From contig JANXSX010000172.1 of the NCBI GenBank assembly GCA_025356475.1, positions 1 to 46,357 of the forward strand: a DNA stretch of 46,357 nucleotides. Direction: 5' to 3'. The translations under genes were made by a program, and so were the position numbers. The stretch is from Isosphaeraceae bacterium. Its GTDB lineage: Bacteria > Planctomycetota > Planctomycetia > Isosphaerales > Isosphaeraceae. This document shows, piece after piece, positions 1,129 through 14,714 of the stretch; the first letter of the stretch is position 1; the number at the start of each line of letters is the position of its first letter. Below the pieces are notes generated by a model. The model was not told the DNA's origin. It saw only the letters and a program-made list of their open reading frames with translations, and did not search any database.

Positions 1129-2060
1129 AGACGCGCTTGAAGTCTGGTTTCACCCTGATCGAACTCCTGGTCGTGATCGCGATTATTGCGGTCCTGATCG
1201 CGCTCTTGCTGCCCGCTGTCCAGGCCGCTCGCGAGGCGGCCCGCCGCTGTCAGTGCGTGAACAACCTGATGCAGATCGGGGTCGCTCTCCAAAACTACCA
1301 GGTCTCCCATGAAGTCCTTCCGCCCGGATCTGTCAACGATACGGGACCGATCGTGGCAACGCCACAAGGATATCATTACAGTTGGATCGTGCAGATTCTA
1401 CCATACATCGAACAGAAGAACCTCCAGAAGAAGTTCGATTTTAACGTCGGACTCTACAGCGCAAAGCACGAGACGGCTCGCTCTTTCGTGATCAACAGCT
1501 TCCTTTGCCCCTCGGACGGGGCGAGCTTCCGGGGCGCTATCCAAGGTGGGGGTGGGTTTCTCGCCCAGTCGAGCTACATGGGGGTCCATCATGACGTAGA
1601 ATCGCCCATTGATGTCACTAACAATGGCGTTCTCTACTTGAACAGCTCAGTCCGATATGAAGACGTTGAAGACGGGGTATCAAACACGCTCTACATTGGA
1701 GAGTCGCGTCATTCTGGGGCCGACCTCGGTTGGGCTTCTGGCACGCGAGCCACCCTCCGGAACGGTGGCTCGGGTATTAACCTCAACCCCTCCAGAAACA
1801 TGATGTCCGGAACCCTAAGGGCGTCTGAGCTCGCTGAGACCAAGCCTGAGGGAGCCGCGAACACCGCGATCCCTGATCCTTCGAAGCCAAAGCCTCCTCC
1901 CGAGCCCGTAGGTGGCTTTAGTAGCCCGCATCCGGGTGGGAGTAACTTCGCATTCGGTGACGGCTCGGTTCGATTCATCAAGACGACGGTTGCGTCAAAT
2001 ACCTTTAGAAAGCTCTGTAATCGAAATGATGGAGATGCTGTCAGCGCTGACAGCTATTGA
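1125..2060 (+). CDS. DUF1559 prepilin-like protein with H-X9-DG C-terminus
   Basis: A 311-residue protein with a textbook prepilin N-terminus: SGFTLIELLVVIAIIAVLIA, then LPAVQAAREAARR, the hallmark of DUF1559 proteins, a family greatly expanded in planctomycetes. Near the C-terminus HPGGSNFAFGDGSVRF gives the H-X9-DG motif found at the end of these proteins. They are expected to be processed by a prepilin peptidase and placed in the envelope; the function is unknown. The ATG at 1125 overlaps the stop of the decayed upstream copy and starts a short basic leader (MKTRLKSG), which decides the start. It closes the pseudopilin operon and is followed by a hairpin at 2073-2120. Confidence 0.9.
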   Translation: MKTRLKSGFTLIELLVVIAIIAVLIALLLPAVQAAREAARRCQCVNNLMQIGVALQNYQVSHEVLPPGSVNDTGPIVATPQGYHYSWIVQILPYIEQKNLQKKFDFNVGLYSAKHETARSFVINSFLCPSDGASFRGAIQGGGGFLAQSSYMGVHHDVESPIDVTNNGVLYLNSSVRYEDVEDGVSNTLYIGESRHSGADLGWASGTRATLRNGGSGINLNPSRNMMSGTLRASELAETKPEGAANTAIPDPSKPKPPPEPVGGFSSPHPGGSNFAFGDGSVRFIKTTVASNTFRKLCNRNDGDAVSADSY

Positions 2061-10415: not shown

Positions 10416-11438
10416 TTAGAATCCTTGCCCCTTGGTCGTTGTTTTGACACGGCCAAGGTACATGTCTGCGGTAACATAAAGAGCACTGCCGTCTTCGCCC
10501 CAACCGACGTTGGCAGTTGCCTCTCCGGTATCGATCGTCCCCAGGTGTGTCCCATCGGGGGCGAAGATCAGGACGCCTCCGGGGCCTGTCGCGAAGATGT
10601 TCCCAGCCTTATCGACCTTGAGTCCATCGGGTAGCCCCTTCTTGGCACCCACCGATTTGGTCGCATCGAAGAAGACCCGACCATTCTTAATCGTGCCGTC
10701 GGTCTGGACGTCGTAGGCCATCCAGATCGCCTTTTGGGGGTCGGAAACAGCAACATACAAAGTTTTTTCATCAGGTGAAAGCCCGATCCCGTTCGGGTAT
10801 GTCAATTCTTTGGTCAACAGGGTTACCGTCCCATCCTTCTTGAGTCGGTACACACCGTTGAAGGGAAGTTCCTTGGCGGGATCATCGTTCTTCTTCATCA
10901 ATCCATAAGGAGGATCGGTGAAATAAAGATCACCATTGGACTTGTAGACGCCATCATTTGGGCTATTGAAACGCTTGCCTTCATACCGATCGACAAGAGT
11001 TGTGAACTTCCCTTCTCCATCCAGCCTAGCGACACGACGATCGCCATGCTGACAAAGAACGAGTCGCTTCGATTCTGGTTCGAGGAGCAAGCCATTGGAG
11101 CCTGGTTCCCCAGTACGGGCAACGGTGCCCGTATAGCCGCTGGGCTTCAGATAAGTCGCCAGCGGCTCGCCCGCCTTGTACTTGTAGATGGTATTCATCG
11201 GTACATCGGAGAAAACCAACGCATTCTCTTTGGCGATCCAGACCGGGCCTTCGGACCAGTCGAAGCCTTCGGCAAGCTTCTCGATCACGGCCGATTTGGG
11301 GATCAGGGCATCGAGACGAGGGTCGAGCCTCTCGATCTTTCCGAACGTGGTCGTTGGGGTCTTGGCTTCTTGTGCGATGAGCGGGGTGCTGAGTAACGCG
11401 AGTGATACGAAGAGGGCGTTCGGGCGGTAGTGAGGCAT
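10416..11438 (-). CDS. SMP-30/gluconolactonase-like secreted protein
   Basis: A 340-residue protein with a signal peptide (ALFVSLALLSTPLIAQE) and a six-bladed beta-propeller of the SMP-30/gluconolactonase/LRE family (PF08450). Visible family motifs are EGFDWSEGPVW (metal-binding Glu), RFNSPNDGVYKSNGDLYFTD (Asn/Asp site), TYPNGIGLSPDEKTLYVAVS and GLPDGLKVDKAGN. Related enzymes hydrolyse sugar lactones such as gluconolactone in a metal-dependent way; many planctomycete copies are periplasmic and of unknown substrate. ATG at 11438 is preceded by AGGATC in the sense direction. Its upstream region is shared with the divergent cobalamin-riboswitch operon, but nothing suggests shared control. Confidence 0.88.
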   Translation of the reverse strand: MPHYRPNALFVSLALLSTPLIAQEAKTPTTTFGKIERLDPRLDALIPKSAVIEKLAEGFDWSEGPVWIAKENALVFSDVPMNTIYKYKAGEPLATYLKPSGYTGTVARTGEPGSNGLLLEPESKRLVLCQHGDRRVARLDGEGKFTTLVDRYEGKRFNSPNDGVYKSNGDLYFTDPPYGLMKKNDDPAKELPFNGVYRLKKDGTVTLLTKELTYPNGIGLSPDEKTLYVAVSDPQKAIWMAYDVQTDGTIKNGRVFFDATKSVGAKKGLPDGLKVDKAGNIFATGPGGVLIFAPDGTHLGTIDTGEATANVGWGEDGSALYVTADMYLGRVKTTTKGQGF

Positions 11439-11608
11439 GGAGAGATCCTCAAGTCACGATTTGGCTTGACAACTTGCGAGCAAGGCCATCCCTTGCCGAC
11501 GTATTGATCAGAGTAGCCCAGCCTCTGCGTGGGAGCAACACTTTCAACGCCCCTGACGGGCAAGTGGCTGGTATTTTCATTGGATATCGACTAGGGTTAG
11601 TGACGCAA

Positions 11609-11783
11609 CGTCCGATGGGCGTCCAGCCTCCTAGAGGTTGGACAGGAAGCCGGTGCAATTCCGGCGCGGGACCGCCGCTGTAAGCGAGGAGGTCTTCGAG
11701 CATTCTGCCACTGCAAGCATCCGCTTGTGGGAAGGCGCTCGAAGACCGTTTGACTCGCGAGCCAGAATACGGCCCTTCGGACG
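11609..11783 (+). ncRNA. Cobalamin (B12) riboswitch
   Basis: All conserved blocks of the cobalamin aptamer are present in order. A P1 stem pairs 11609-11615 (CGTCCGA) with 11777-11783 (TCGGACG), extended by GGGC/GCCC. A P2-like stem pairs 11621-11630 with 11634-11643. The core reads GCCGGTGCAATTCCGG, then ACCGCCGCTGTAAGCGAGG. A perfect 11-bp arm pairs 11691-11701 with 11737-11747. GCCACTG lies at 11707-11713 and GGGAAGG at 11729-11735. The closing B12-box-like element GAGCCAGAATACGGCC ends near 11774. It lies on the plus strand in front of the DUF1559 gene at 11899. Cobalamin riboswitches normally repress B12 synthesis or uptake genes when adenosyl- or methylcobalamin is abundant. Confidence 0.93.
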
Positions 11784-11784
11784 T

Positions 11785-11889
11785 CCCAGCGATGCTTCGG
11801 CCTAAAGCATCTGGGGGGTAATGTTCGTGCGCGCAATTGTTGCGTGCCGATGCCTCTCCGTCCGGCCGAAGCACCTGGCCACCGGAGGA
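11785..11889 (+). promoter_or_regulatory. Putative riboswitch expression platform and ribosome-binding site
   Basis: Right after the aptamer, CCAG..ATGCT (11786-11795) can pair with AGCATCTGG (11806-11814). No T run follows, so a simple transcription terminator is not evident. The Shine-Dalgarno GGAGGA at 11884-11889, 9 bases before the ATG at 11899, can be partly paired by TCCGG (11861-11865) with CCGGA (11882-11886). This would suit control of translation, but the switch itself is inference. Confidence 0.45.
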
Positions 11890-11898
11890 CATCGTGTC

Positions 11899-12741
11899 AT
11901 GCCCCGCCTCATGCGTGCCCGCCCCTCGGGCTTCACTTTGATCGAGCTGCTGGTCGTCATCGCGATTATCGCGGTACTGATCGCACTCCTGCTTCCAGCG
12001 GTCCAAGCTGCCCGCGAAGCTGCAAGACGGATCGGTTGCGTCAACAATCTTAAACAGATTGGGCTGGCCGTCCACGGCTACCACGACACCCAATCGGTTT
12101 TTCCGGCTGGTGGCTGGATCAACCTGTTCAGCCAACCTACAACCAAAAACATGAACATTGGTTGGTCAGCAGTCAGTCTTCCCTGGCTGGAGCAACGGGC
12201 CCTCTTCGACAGCTTGAATTTGATGCTGCCGTATCAGAACGATGTGAATTCCACAGCATCGCACACATCACTCCAGGTTTACCTCTGTCCATCGGAGCCG
12301 AGGAGTACGCTCTGGAATCGCGCGCCTGGCGATCAATTTGACTGTGCGGATGCCGATTATGGCGGGATGTACGGTGAACGGGGCTTGAGCAGTCCAACGT
12401 CGAATAATAATCCGCCCCGCGGTTCGATGATCTTTAATCAGGCTCTGGGAATTGTGGCGATTCGAGACGGACTCTCGATGACGATCATGATCGGCGAAGC
12501 CCCCGAGGCGATCAATGCCCTCTGGGCGAGCGGGCACAACATCTTTGATCAGTCCGCGCCGATCAATGCCCGCCCCAAGTTCGAATTTGGCGAAGAGCTC
12601 ACGAGTCAGCATCCCGGTGGAGTCAATGTGCTCCTCGGTGATGGCTCGGTCCGCTTCCTCAAAAACACTACAGATTCTCGTGTTCTCGCTGGGTTGTGTA
12701 CCCGCGATGGTGGTGAAGTTCTTGACGCGGGTTCTTACTGA
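11899..12741 (+). CDS. DUF1559 prepilin-like protein under B12-riboswitch control
   Basis: A 280-residue DUF1559 protein. The start at 11899 is chosen for its GGAGGA ribosome-binding site and because it gives a short basic leader (MPRLMRARPSG) before the prepilin helix FTLIELLVVIAIIAVLIALL. The frame is open back to an ATG at 11821, but that would add 26 residues in front of a leader that must be short. LPAVQAAREAARR follows, and the C-terminus has HPGGVNVLLGDGSVRF, the H-X9-DG motif. Processing by a prepilin peptidase and location in the envelope are expected from the family. The cobalamin riboswitch lies 115 bases upstream and a DUF4465 PEP-CTERM gene follows after 56 bases, so both are likely on one B12-regulated transcript. 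What it binds or assembles is unknown. Confidence 0.9.
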   Translation: MPRLMRARPSGFTLIELLVVIAIIAVLIALLLPAVQAAREAARRIGCVNNLKQIGLAVHGYHDTQSVFPAGGWINLFSQPTTKNMNIGWSAVSLPWLEQRALFDSLNLMLPYQNDVNSTASHTSLQVYLCPSEPRSTLWNRAPGDQFDCADADYGGMYGERGLSSPTSNNNPPRGSMIFNQALGIVAIRDGLSMTIMIGEAPEAINALWASGHNIFDQSAPINARPKFEFGEELTSQHPGGVNVLLGDGSVRFLKNTTDSRVLAGLCTRDGGEVLDAGSY

Positions 12742-12797: not shown

Positions 12798-13601
12798 ATG
12801 CGTCGATCGTTCGTCCTTTCGTTGGCTGTGGCCACACTGCTTTCTGTCGGTTTGCGTGCCGATTTTGTTGCCGGATTCGAGGATCAGGGGCTGGCTGCGA
12901 ACTCGCACAACAACAACGCCGGAAATGCCGGCGGATTCACAAGCGGCAATATGTTCTTTAGCAACTCGTTTAGCATCCAGAACTTTGGCGGGACCAACTA
13001 CGAGATCTGGTCCGGGTTCGCGATCTCAAATAGGGCGGTCACCGTTTCCGAGAGCGTCACTGCGGCCTCAACCAACGAGTACAGCGACTTTCAGTTCGAT
13101 GCTTACCCTGGTTCTGGAGCTGCAGGGACACCAACCTACGCGGTCGGCTTCTCAACTGGGTTCATGAATCTGCCCGCCGGGAAGCAGGCGTACTCCATCG
13201 ATATCGCCAACACCCTCTATGATTACCTGGCGATGTTGAAGGGCAACCGCTTCTCAACCGCATTTCATGCCGGGAGTTTCTTTAGTGTCACTCTCAGTGG
13301 ATATGCCGGTCTGGGAGCCACGGGGGCTAGCCTAGGAACGCCGGTCAGCATCGACCTGGCTCGTTATGTAACTGATACTGATCACCCGCTCCAAGGATGG
13401 TCAACGATCAACTTGACTCCGCTGTCGGGTGCGAAGAGCATTGGCTTCAGCTTCAGTTCATCGGACACAGGAGACTTCGGGATCAATACGCCGTTGTACT
13501 TTGCACTCGATAACCTTCGGGTCGTCCCCGAGCCTGCGAGTTGGGTGTTGGGGTTGATCGGCGGAACGTCCCTCTGGGTCTTGGCTCGTCGTCGAGTCTA
13601 G
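12798..13601 (+). CDS. DUF4465 protein with PEP-CTERM sorting signal
   Basis: A 267-residue surface protein. ATG at 12798 has GGAG 9 bases upstream and opens a signal peptide (MRRSFVLSLAVATLLSVGL). Residues about 22-240 match the DUF4465 pattern: GGFTSGNMFFSN, WSGFAISN, TYAVGF, NTLYDYLAMLKGNRF, FFSVTLSGY, WSTINLTPL and GFSFSSSDTGDFGINTPLYF followed by ALDNL. The last 25 residues are a PEP-CTERM signal: VPEP, a hydrophobic helix, then ARRR. Exosortase would cut there and fix the protein at the cell surface; no exosortase gene is in the window. As I recall, DUF4465-type lipoproteins of Bacteroidetes occur in cobalamin-riboswitch loci and include B12-binding proteins (BtuH type); I cannot verify this here. 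Together with the riboswitch, this makes a corrinoid-related role plausible. Confidence 0.85.
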   Translation: MRRSFVLSLAVATLLSVGLRADFVAGFEDQGLAANSHNNNAGNAGGFTSGNMFFSNSFSIQNFGGTNYEIWSGFAISNRAVTVSESVTAASTNEYSDFQFDAYPGSGAAGTPTYAVGFSTGFMNLPAGKQAYSIDIANTLYDYLAMLKGNRFSTAFHAGSFFSVTLSGYAGLGATGASLGTPVSIDLARYVTDTDHPLQGWSTINLTPLSGAKSIGFSFSSSDTGDFGINTPLYFALDNLRVVPEPASWVLGLIGGTSLWVLARRRV

Positions 13602-13619: not shown

Positions 13620-13646
13620 CTCACGCCCGGTCATGCCGGGCGTGAG
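13620..13646. terminator. Strong bidirectional hairpin terminator
   Basis: A perfect 11-bp GC-rich stem, CTCACGCCCGG (13620-13630) with CCGGGCGTGAG (13636-13646), has a 5-base loop and is followed by ACGTTTCTT. It closes the B12-riboswitch operon at 13601 and sits 12 bases from the end of the convergent gene at 13659. Confidence 0.8.
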
Positions 13647-13658
13647 ACGTTTCTTGGC

Positions 13659-14714
13659 TCAAGAAACCTGGGCGACGGCATCGAGCAGGGTCGCCCACTT
13701 CTTACCTTGTCGGGCCTTCCAGGAGCCGACGTGGTAGGCATAACCGGCGATCAGAGGAACGGCCAGCGTGGCTTCGCTGTAGACCATTTGCTCGTAGGTC
13801 GTGTCCACTTTGCCCCAGCTCGAAGCTTCCTTGAGGGTACTCCCGGAGAGCGCTCCATCCCGAACGTCGGCCACGGTGATCTGGATCGCGTACTTGTGCA
13901 TAGGCGCATCTTCACCGATGATCTCGGCGGCGACGACGATATCTTGGGCGAAATTCTTGGGAACCCCACCACCGATCATGAACAAACCGGTCGAGGGGTT
14001 CTTGACCTTGAGTTGGGTCAGCTCGTAGAAATCCTTCACGCTGTCGATGGAGACCTTGGGTCCATCCCCTCGCTCATGCTGGTGGGCCACAAGGCCAAAG
14101 CCAGCGGAGCAGTCACTAAAGGCTGGACAGAAGATCGGTACGTCCGCTTTGTAGGCCTCGTAAATGATGCTATCGGTCGCCTTGCAGCCGACTCGATCGA
14201 GGTACGCACCCATCTCGCGGATGAACTCGCGTGATGAGTAGGGACGGTGTTCAAGAGAGTCGGCCACAATCTTTGTGGCTTCGTCACAGATCCTCAGTTC
14301 ATCTTCATCGATCAGTGTGTCGTAAATGCGGTCGATGTGCAGGTCTCGAAGTGTCGAGTCATCGAGACCGGCACGGAGACGCTCTTCGGCGATGTAGTGT
14401 CGGAAGCCGAGGGCCTCAAAGAAGTCTTGGTCGACAATATTCGCGCCAGTGCTGACAATGGCATCAACCATGTTGGCGCGGATGAGGTCGACGAACACCT
14501 TCTTGAGGCCGGCGCTGATCAACGAACCAGCGAGGCAAAGGATGACTCCGCAATCCGTATCCGCCAGCATCCGATCATAGATCTCAGCGGCGCGGGCAAG
14601 ATCGCGGGCTGAGAAAGCCATCTTGCTCATTGCATCCACGATGGGTCGGACATCGTGATTGAGAATGTCGATGTGTTCAATTGTCGAGGCGAGGAAGTCG
14701 CTCTTCACGGGCAT
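13659..14714 (-). CDS. Deoxyhypusine synthase-like protein
   Basis: A 351-residue member of the deoxyhypusine synthase family. In eukaryotes and archaea the enzyme moves an aminobutyl group from spermidine to a lysine of eIF5A/aIF5A using NAD+. The sequence keeps the NAD-binding blocks LAGSLISAGL, STGANIVDQD and SDCSAGFG, and the active-site region ASSWGKVDTTYEQ, in which Lys at about residue 302 corresponds to the catalytic Lys329 of the human enzyme. Bacteria have no eIF5A, so such bacterial proteins probably act on a small amine, as in homospermidine-type synthesis. That is inference. It lies 98 bases downstream of the HisKA-only gene on the same strand and could be cotranscribed with it, though no functional link is obvious. 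Confidence 0.9.
   Translation of the reverse strand: MPVKSDFLASTIEHIDILNHDVRPIVDAMSKMAFSARDLARAAEIYDRMLADTDCGVILCLAGSLISAGLKKVFVDLIRANMVDAIVSTGANIVDQDFFEALGFRHYIAEERLRAGLDDSTLRDLHIDRIYDTLIDEDELRICDEATKIVADSLEHRPYSSREFIREMGAYLDRVGCKATDSIIYEAYKADVPIFCPAFSDCSAGFGLVAHQHERGDGPKVSIDSVKDFYELTQLKVKNPSTGLFMIGGGVPKNFAQDIVVAAEIIGEDAPMHKYAIQITVADVRDGALSGSTLKEASSWGKVDTTYEQMVYSEATLAVPLIAGYAYHVGSWKARQGKKWATLLDAVAQVS

Follow-up and report, generated by a model that had tools for sequence, protein, structure and literature searches.

The 46,357-nucleotide contig of an Isosphaeraceae bacterium analysed here (JANXSX010000172.1, referred to below as the window) carries a cobalamin riboswitch followed on the same strand by two genes, the first coding for a pilin-like DUF1559 protein and the second for a DUF4465 protein. 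We consider it probable that they form a riboswitch-controlled, TonB-independent operon for B12 scavenging, in which the DUF4465 protein would be the binder and the DUF1559 protein its pilin-type partner. The DUF4465 identity of the second gene explains the riboswitch, B12 binding by this family being already known. The new result is that, by comparison of sequences across the order Isosphaerales, the pilin-like DUF1559 recurs in the B12 regulon of these bacteria, a membership so far without explanation.

The riboswitch and the operon

The locus comprises the following features:

11599 to 11792, + strand: cobalamin riboswitch aptamer (RF00174, cmscan)
11608 to 11784, + strand: P1 closing stem, ACGTCCG (11608-11614) with CGGACGT (11778-11784), read directly
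11691 to 11747, + strand: 11-bp arm (11691-11701 with 11737-11747, perfect complement), a peripheral stem enclosing the GCCACTG box
11793 to 11898, + strand: expression platform and leader, with the Shine-Dalgarno sequence GGAGG at 11884-11888
11899 to 12741, + strand: DUF1559 pilin-like gene, 280 aa (longest open frame from 11821; Pfam and NCBIfam)
12798 to 13601, + strand: DUF4465 (BtuJ-like) predicted B12-binding protein, 267 aa (PF14717)
13620 to 13646, + strand: terminator-like hairpin of 12 pairs, closing the operon

The aptamer is the sole Rfam match returned by cmscan in the window (11599-11792, + strand). It scores 90.8 bits, where the gathering score is 31.5 (E-value = 2.6 × 10-21), with an alignment covering the whole model (1-189), and it is the only place in the 5.9-Mb genome where RF00174 is matched. 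A chance or degenerate riboswitch is ruled out by this score and by the full-length match. An earlier sequence-only reading had placed a cobalamin riboswitch with an intact aptamer at 11609-11783, which is the core of the match, and had proposed to score it with Infernal against RF00174. The outcome, far over the gathering score, bears out that reading, as do the exact pairing of the P1 stem and that of the 11-bp arm, of which the two strands, GGTCTTCGAGC (11691-11701) and GCTCGAAGACC (11737-11747), are perfectly complementary. Like other members of the RF00174 class the aptamer is full-length with an intact core, and in itself it is ordinary; what is new is the gene that follows it.

The ATG of this gene (11899) is located 106 bp 3' of the aptamer, which thus lies in the 5' leader of that gene and on the same strand. 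No terminator-like site was found between the aptamer and the start codon, so that translational control of the operon appears likelier than terminator-based control; sequestration of the Shine-Dalgarno sequence was not clearly seen in the folding of 11784-11925. The DUF4465 gene starts 56 bp after the DUF1559 gene, and the terminator-like hairpin that follows makes the locus look like a two-gene B12-capture operon. Both flanking genes, a gluconolactonase-like gene (10416-11438) and a deoxyhypusine-synthase-like gene (13659-14714), are on the opposite strand. These flanks, together with the hairpin, delimit a unit consisting of the riboswitch, DUF1559, DUF4465 and the terminator. Planctomycete gene families (DUF1552, PSD/cytochrome) are found around the operon. 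The gene at 13659-14714 (- strand), of the deoxyhypusine-synthase family and convergent with the operon, scores above the equivalog cut-off of the NCBIfam model for 1,9-bis(guanidino)-5-aza-nonane synthase.

The DUF4465 protein

The second gene matches PF14717 with an E-value of 3.1 × 10-35 (122.5 bits, cut-off 25). Its product exhibits an N-terminal hydrophobic leader (MRRSFVLSLAVATLLSVGLRADFV) and a C-terminal PEP-CTERM-like tail (VPEPASWVLGLIGGTSLWVLARRRV), in which the PEP motif, the transmembrane helix and the basic end are all seen, the Pfam score (19.5 bits) being just under the cut-off of 20.7. Exosortase has three matches in this genome and is present in all 45 genomes of the order. 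By sequence, the protein matches the PDB chains 9HMU, 9FCT, 9QPM and 9I2L. Its structure is predicted with a pLDDT of 90, and the nine best PDB fold matches to the model are all DUF4465 proteins (E-values from 6 × 10-17 to 4 × 10-10). As the rmsd of these matches is 4-10 Å, we claim for the model the overall fold alone, an augmented jelly roll.

Eight distant DUF4465 proteins, namely BtuJ1, BtuJ2 and six others, have been tested and bind cobalamin (PMC13398666; for BtuJ also PMC12751083), and one of the eight is planctomycetal, from Mucisphaera (PMC13398666). The two pocket tyrosines named as core residues for B12 binding in these proteins (PMC13398666) are both kept in the window protein: NTLYDYLA corresponds to NTTYDYLA of BtuJ1 in the DE helix, and NTPLYF to NTPSYF in the HI loop. 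The proven function of the family and the conserved pocket residues give good support to the prediction that the DUF4465 protein of the operon is a B12 binder.

The window protein shares its domain, predicted fold, pocket tyrosines and riboswitch control with BtuJ1, BtuJ2 and other DUF4465 proteins (IPR027828), and with the B12 operons of Bacteroides thetaiotaomicron (PMC13398666, PMC12751083). However, the BtuJ proteins are lipoproteins encoded in operons with the TonB-dependent BtuB, whereas a lipoprotein cysteine was sought in the leader of the window protein and is absent, and a PEP-CTERM-like tail is present. In further contrast to the BtuJ operons, the first gene here is pilin-like and the TonB plug is absent from the order. 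Lacking the leader cysteine, the protein is filed as a DUF4465 protein and not as a BtuJ lipoprotein; a lipoprotein signal is found in most members of the family, though not in every one. BtuH, another candidate relative of the second gene, was replaced by BtuJ/DUF4465 on published evidence. A separate open frame of 1283 aa (L120:3098-6946) carries, in addition to DUF4465, SdrD_B and eight Big_2 repeats of the Ig-like type, and would be a large version of the B12 binder at the cell surface.

In the 45 genomes of the order, 36 of the 39 DUF4465 matches follow a codirectional RF00174 match at a distance of 311-2398 bp; of the remaining three, one is partial and the other two start close to a contig end (172 and 710 bp away). 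DUF4465 is rarer in a sample of the phylum (11 of 392 genomes, our own included), where a riboswitch is found upstream of 10 of 11 further loci, the exception beginning 128 bp from a contig end. The same arrangement is seen at 13 of 16 DUF4465 loci from several phyla (planctomycetes, verrucomicrobia, proteobacteria and others), with riboswitches called by Rfam, a regular expression having missed most of the real ones. Related DUF4465 loci were searched for with a 7-row alignment as query, and the best match to the window protein that carries a name is from Isosphaeraceae. This match and the planctomycete gene families around the operon point to that family. DUF1559 is absent between riboswitch and DUF4465 in 16 of the 34 DUF4465 riboswitch loci, and a pilin motif was found upstream of DUF4465 in none of the loci checked outside planctomycetes. 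Thus, DUF4465 does not need DUF1559 in order to function.

The DUF1559 protein and its linkage to cobalamin riboswitches

The first gene matches PF07596 (E-value = 6.8 × 10-46), and its product exhibits a prepilin leader (GFTLIELLVVIAIIAVL), resembling that of type II pseudopilins, and an H-X9-DG tail; the predicted structure (pLDDT 48) is too poor for fold comparison or for the recognition of a B12 pocket. In Planctopirus, no paralogue group is larger than DUF1559, with 68 copies of which two are essential, and its function is not known (PMC10632474). We counted 60-110 copies per genome, and about 60 in the genome studied here. The window member has the leader, domain and tail common to the planctomycete paralogues of this family (PF07596, SBP_bac_10). 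It differs in that it would be vitamin-regulated and belongs to a clade that, within our sample, is found only behind cobalamin riboswitches. A second DUF1559 gene of the window (1221-1994, + strand; L156) has no riboswitch link and falls outside the riboswitch clade.

The 45 genomes of the order contain 92 cobalamin riboswitches, 91 of them with a codirectional gene. DUF1559 is among the first two genes behind 43 of these 91 and is the very first gene behind 40, in 35 genomes. This recurrence rules out a solitary oddity of one genome. Eighteen of the 43 DUF1559-linked riboswitches are at DUF4465 loci; the remainder head other genes or stand alone. DUF1559 thus heads riboswitch operons with BtuF/BtuC (L111, L114), with BtuF, a PP-loop gene and DUF6580 (L144), with PepSY_TM (L078, L066), or with a TolC-like OEP gene (L090). 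Further riboswitches of the order control CobN, MetE and ribonucleotide reductase, which are expected members of a B12 regulon.

A maximum-likelihood tree was built from 42 riboswitch-linked and 69 other DUF1559 proteins. It groups 27 of the 42 linked proteins in one exclusive clade (100/99) and seven in a second, and requires about seven changes of riboswitch linkage, six of them forced by well-supported branches; the unlinked background comes from three genomes, so these clade and change counts may shift.

The surprise expressed in the sequence-only reading was half right. The pilin-like nature of the first gene holds, with its N-terminal methylation motif and H-X9-DG tail, and the suspicion of a misassigned gene family falls away, DUF1559 being upheld by both Pfam and NCBIfam. 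The statement that the riboswitch does not precede a B12 gene is correct for the first gene and incorrect for the second, which was overlooked 56 bp downstream and belongs, within the same operon, to a proven B12-binding family. The view that such riboswitches rarely precede pilin-like genes is contradicted in this order by the 43 cases out of 91, and the B12-regulated function outside the textbook ones that it envisaged is likely. Our literature search found no publication treating cobalamin riboswitches and planctomycetes together, and the DUF4465 study does not mention DUF1559, pilin or PEP-CTERM (PMC13398666).

B12 requirement and uptake in the order

Every one of the 45 genomes of the order has B12-binding domains. 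In the genome studied here, a 1250-aa open frame with such a domain would, by its domain and length, fit methionine synthase MetH. The TonB plug (PF07715) was detected in none of the 45 genomes, with positive results for the E. coli, Caulobacter and Bacteroides controls; the order thus seems to lack the TonB-dependent outer-membrane receptor of BtuB-type uptake. Full-length FecCD was found in 8 of the 45 genomes and CbiC in 10, neither being present in this genome. DUF4465 occurs mostly where CbiC is absent (27 of 35 genomes, versus 2 of 10 with CbiC; Fisher p = 0.0017, relatedness not corrected). No B12-acquisition locus other than the operon is recognised in this genome, in a search that left out the ECF, BtuM and DUF6580 carriers.

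Proposed mechanism and alternatives

By analogy with the known behaviour of the families concerned, the operon would be off in the presence of B12; when the vitamin is scarce the aptamer would be empty, and both proteins would be made. The DUF4465 protein would be exported and, as is typical of PEP-CTERM proteins, held at the surface or envelope by its tail, gripping B12 in the loop pocket of the jelly roll as BtuJ does. The DUF1559 protein may be processed like a type IV pilin and enter a pilus or pseudopilus, and this fibre would present, gather or deliver B12, either alone or bound to the DUF4465 protein, at an outer envelope free of TonB receptors. It is above all the role of DUF1559, as a dedicated pilin-type partner in B12 capture, that is inferred here.

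DUF1559 might instead have no contact with B12, and serve as a secretion or assembly factor (type II-like pseudopilus) that only places the PEP-CTERM DUF4465 protein on the surface. The likeness of its leader to type II pseudopilins agrees with such a role, as does the fact that, in most Isosphaeraceae, DUF1559 immediately precedes the PEP-CTERM gene of the DUF4465 loci. On the other hand, DUF1559 also heads riboswitch operons without any PEP-CTERM gene, including those with BtuF/BtuC, or operons that end after DUF1559 itself. Moreover, a PEP-CTERM gene is found downstream of only one of the 29 further DUF1559 loci that could be read in this genome, so that DUF1559 is no general partner of PEP-CTERM proteins. 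We regard the assembly role as possible but rather unlikely. That DUF1559 is a bystander, placed behind riboswitches by chance or through capture of a promoter-riboswitch segment, is highly improbable. The great abundance of the family and the repeated linkage changes on its tree would suit this explanation, but DUF1559 is the first gene behind 40 of 91 riboswitches (binomial p = 4 × 10-43 at an assumed background of 2 percent, an optimistic value since the genomes are related), and a lineage of 27 proteins has kept its riboswitch link across many genera. Least probable of all is an operon with a different ligand or a role other than uptake, for instance in biofilm matrix or in storing B12 as a public good: PEP-CTERM proteins are often tied to extracellular matrix, and a search for FecCD as inner-membrane carrier of B12 gave none in this genome, but the distant DUF4465 proteins that bind B12, the planctomycetal one among them, the retained pocket tyrosines, and the presence of B12-binding enzymes in a genome without CbiC all speak against it.

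As a speculative extension, which we think doubtful at present, DUF1559 would be a nutrient-capture pilin system of planctomycetes, its B12-regulated lineages being TonB-independent importers of the outer envelope that replace BtuB. If so, the many DUF1559 paralogues per genome would be sibling systems for other nutrients. Control by a single vitamin provides a concrete guess at the substrate of some members, and the question of how large molecules pass the outer membrane without TonB receptors becomes testable by deletion of a single gene. Passages of a study on Planctopirus and Gemmata describe dextran binding to pili-like fibres from crateriform structures, with some dextran apparently internalised (PMC5394234). 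These fibres are an appendage of comparable type from the same phylum, with a proposed role in capturing large nutrients (PMC5394234). Those passages (PMC5394234) do not name DUF1559 as the subunit, and the link to the operon is our hypothesis.

Other genes at riboswitch loci

DUF6580 (PF20221) recurs in riboswitch loci beside BtuF and a PP-loop (Diphthami_syn_2) gene (L134, L142, L144, L150, L063:6320-6955, L075:4453-5325), and in L075 it lies directly behind DUF4465. Where FecCD is absent, it may serve as an inner-membrane carrier of B12. In one genus (g17), a gene for a TolC-like outer-membrane efflux protein (OEP) recurs behind DUF4465 or DUF1559 (L071, L106, L125, L126, L076, L090, L092, L108); it may provide a conduit through the outer membrane, or be no more than a neighbour in conserved synteny. 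A second PEP-CTERM family is located directly behind cobalamin riboswitches (L104:2048-2929, L131:1865-2938, L138:2077-2940, L143:5714-6979, L148:2111-2956), with more members at L085:1975-2874, L073:5575-6678, L091:5636-6700 and L145:1993-2856 and, identified by eye, L075:2906-3682. Apart from PEP-CTERM it has no Pfam domain, and none of its relatives has a solved structure; it is a candidate for a new B12-binding family.
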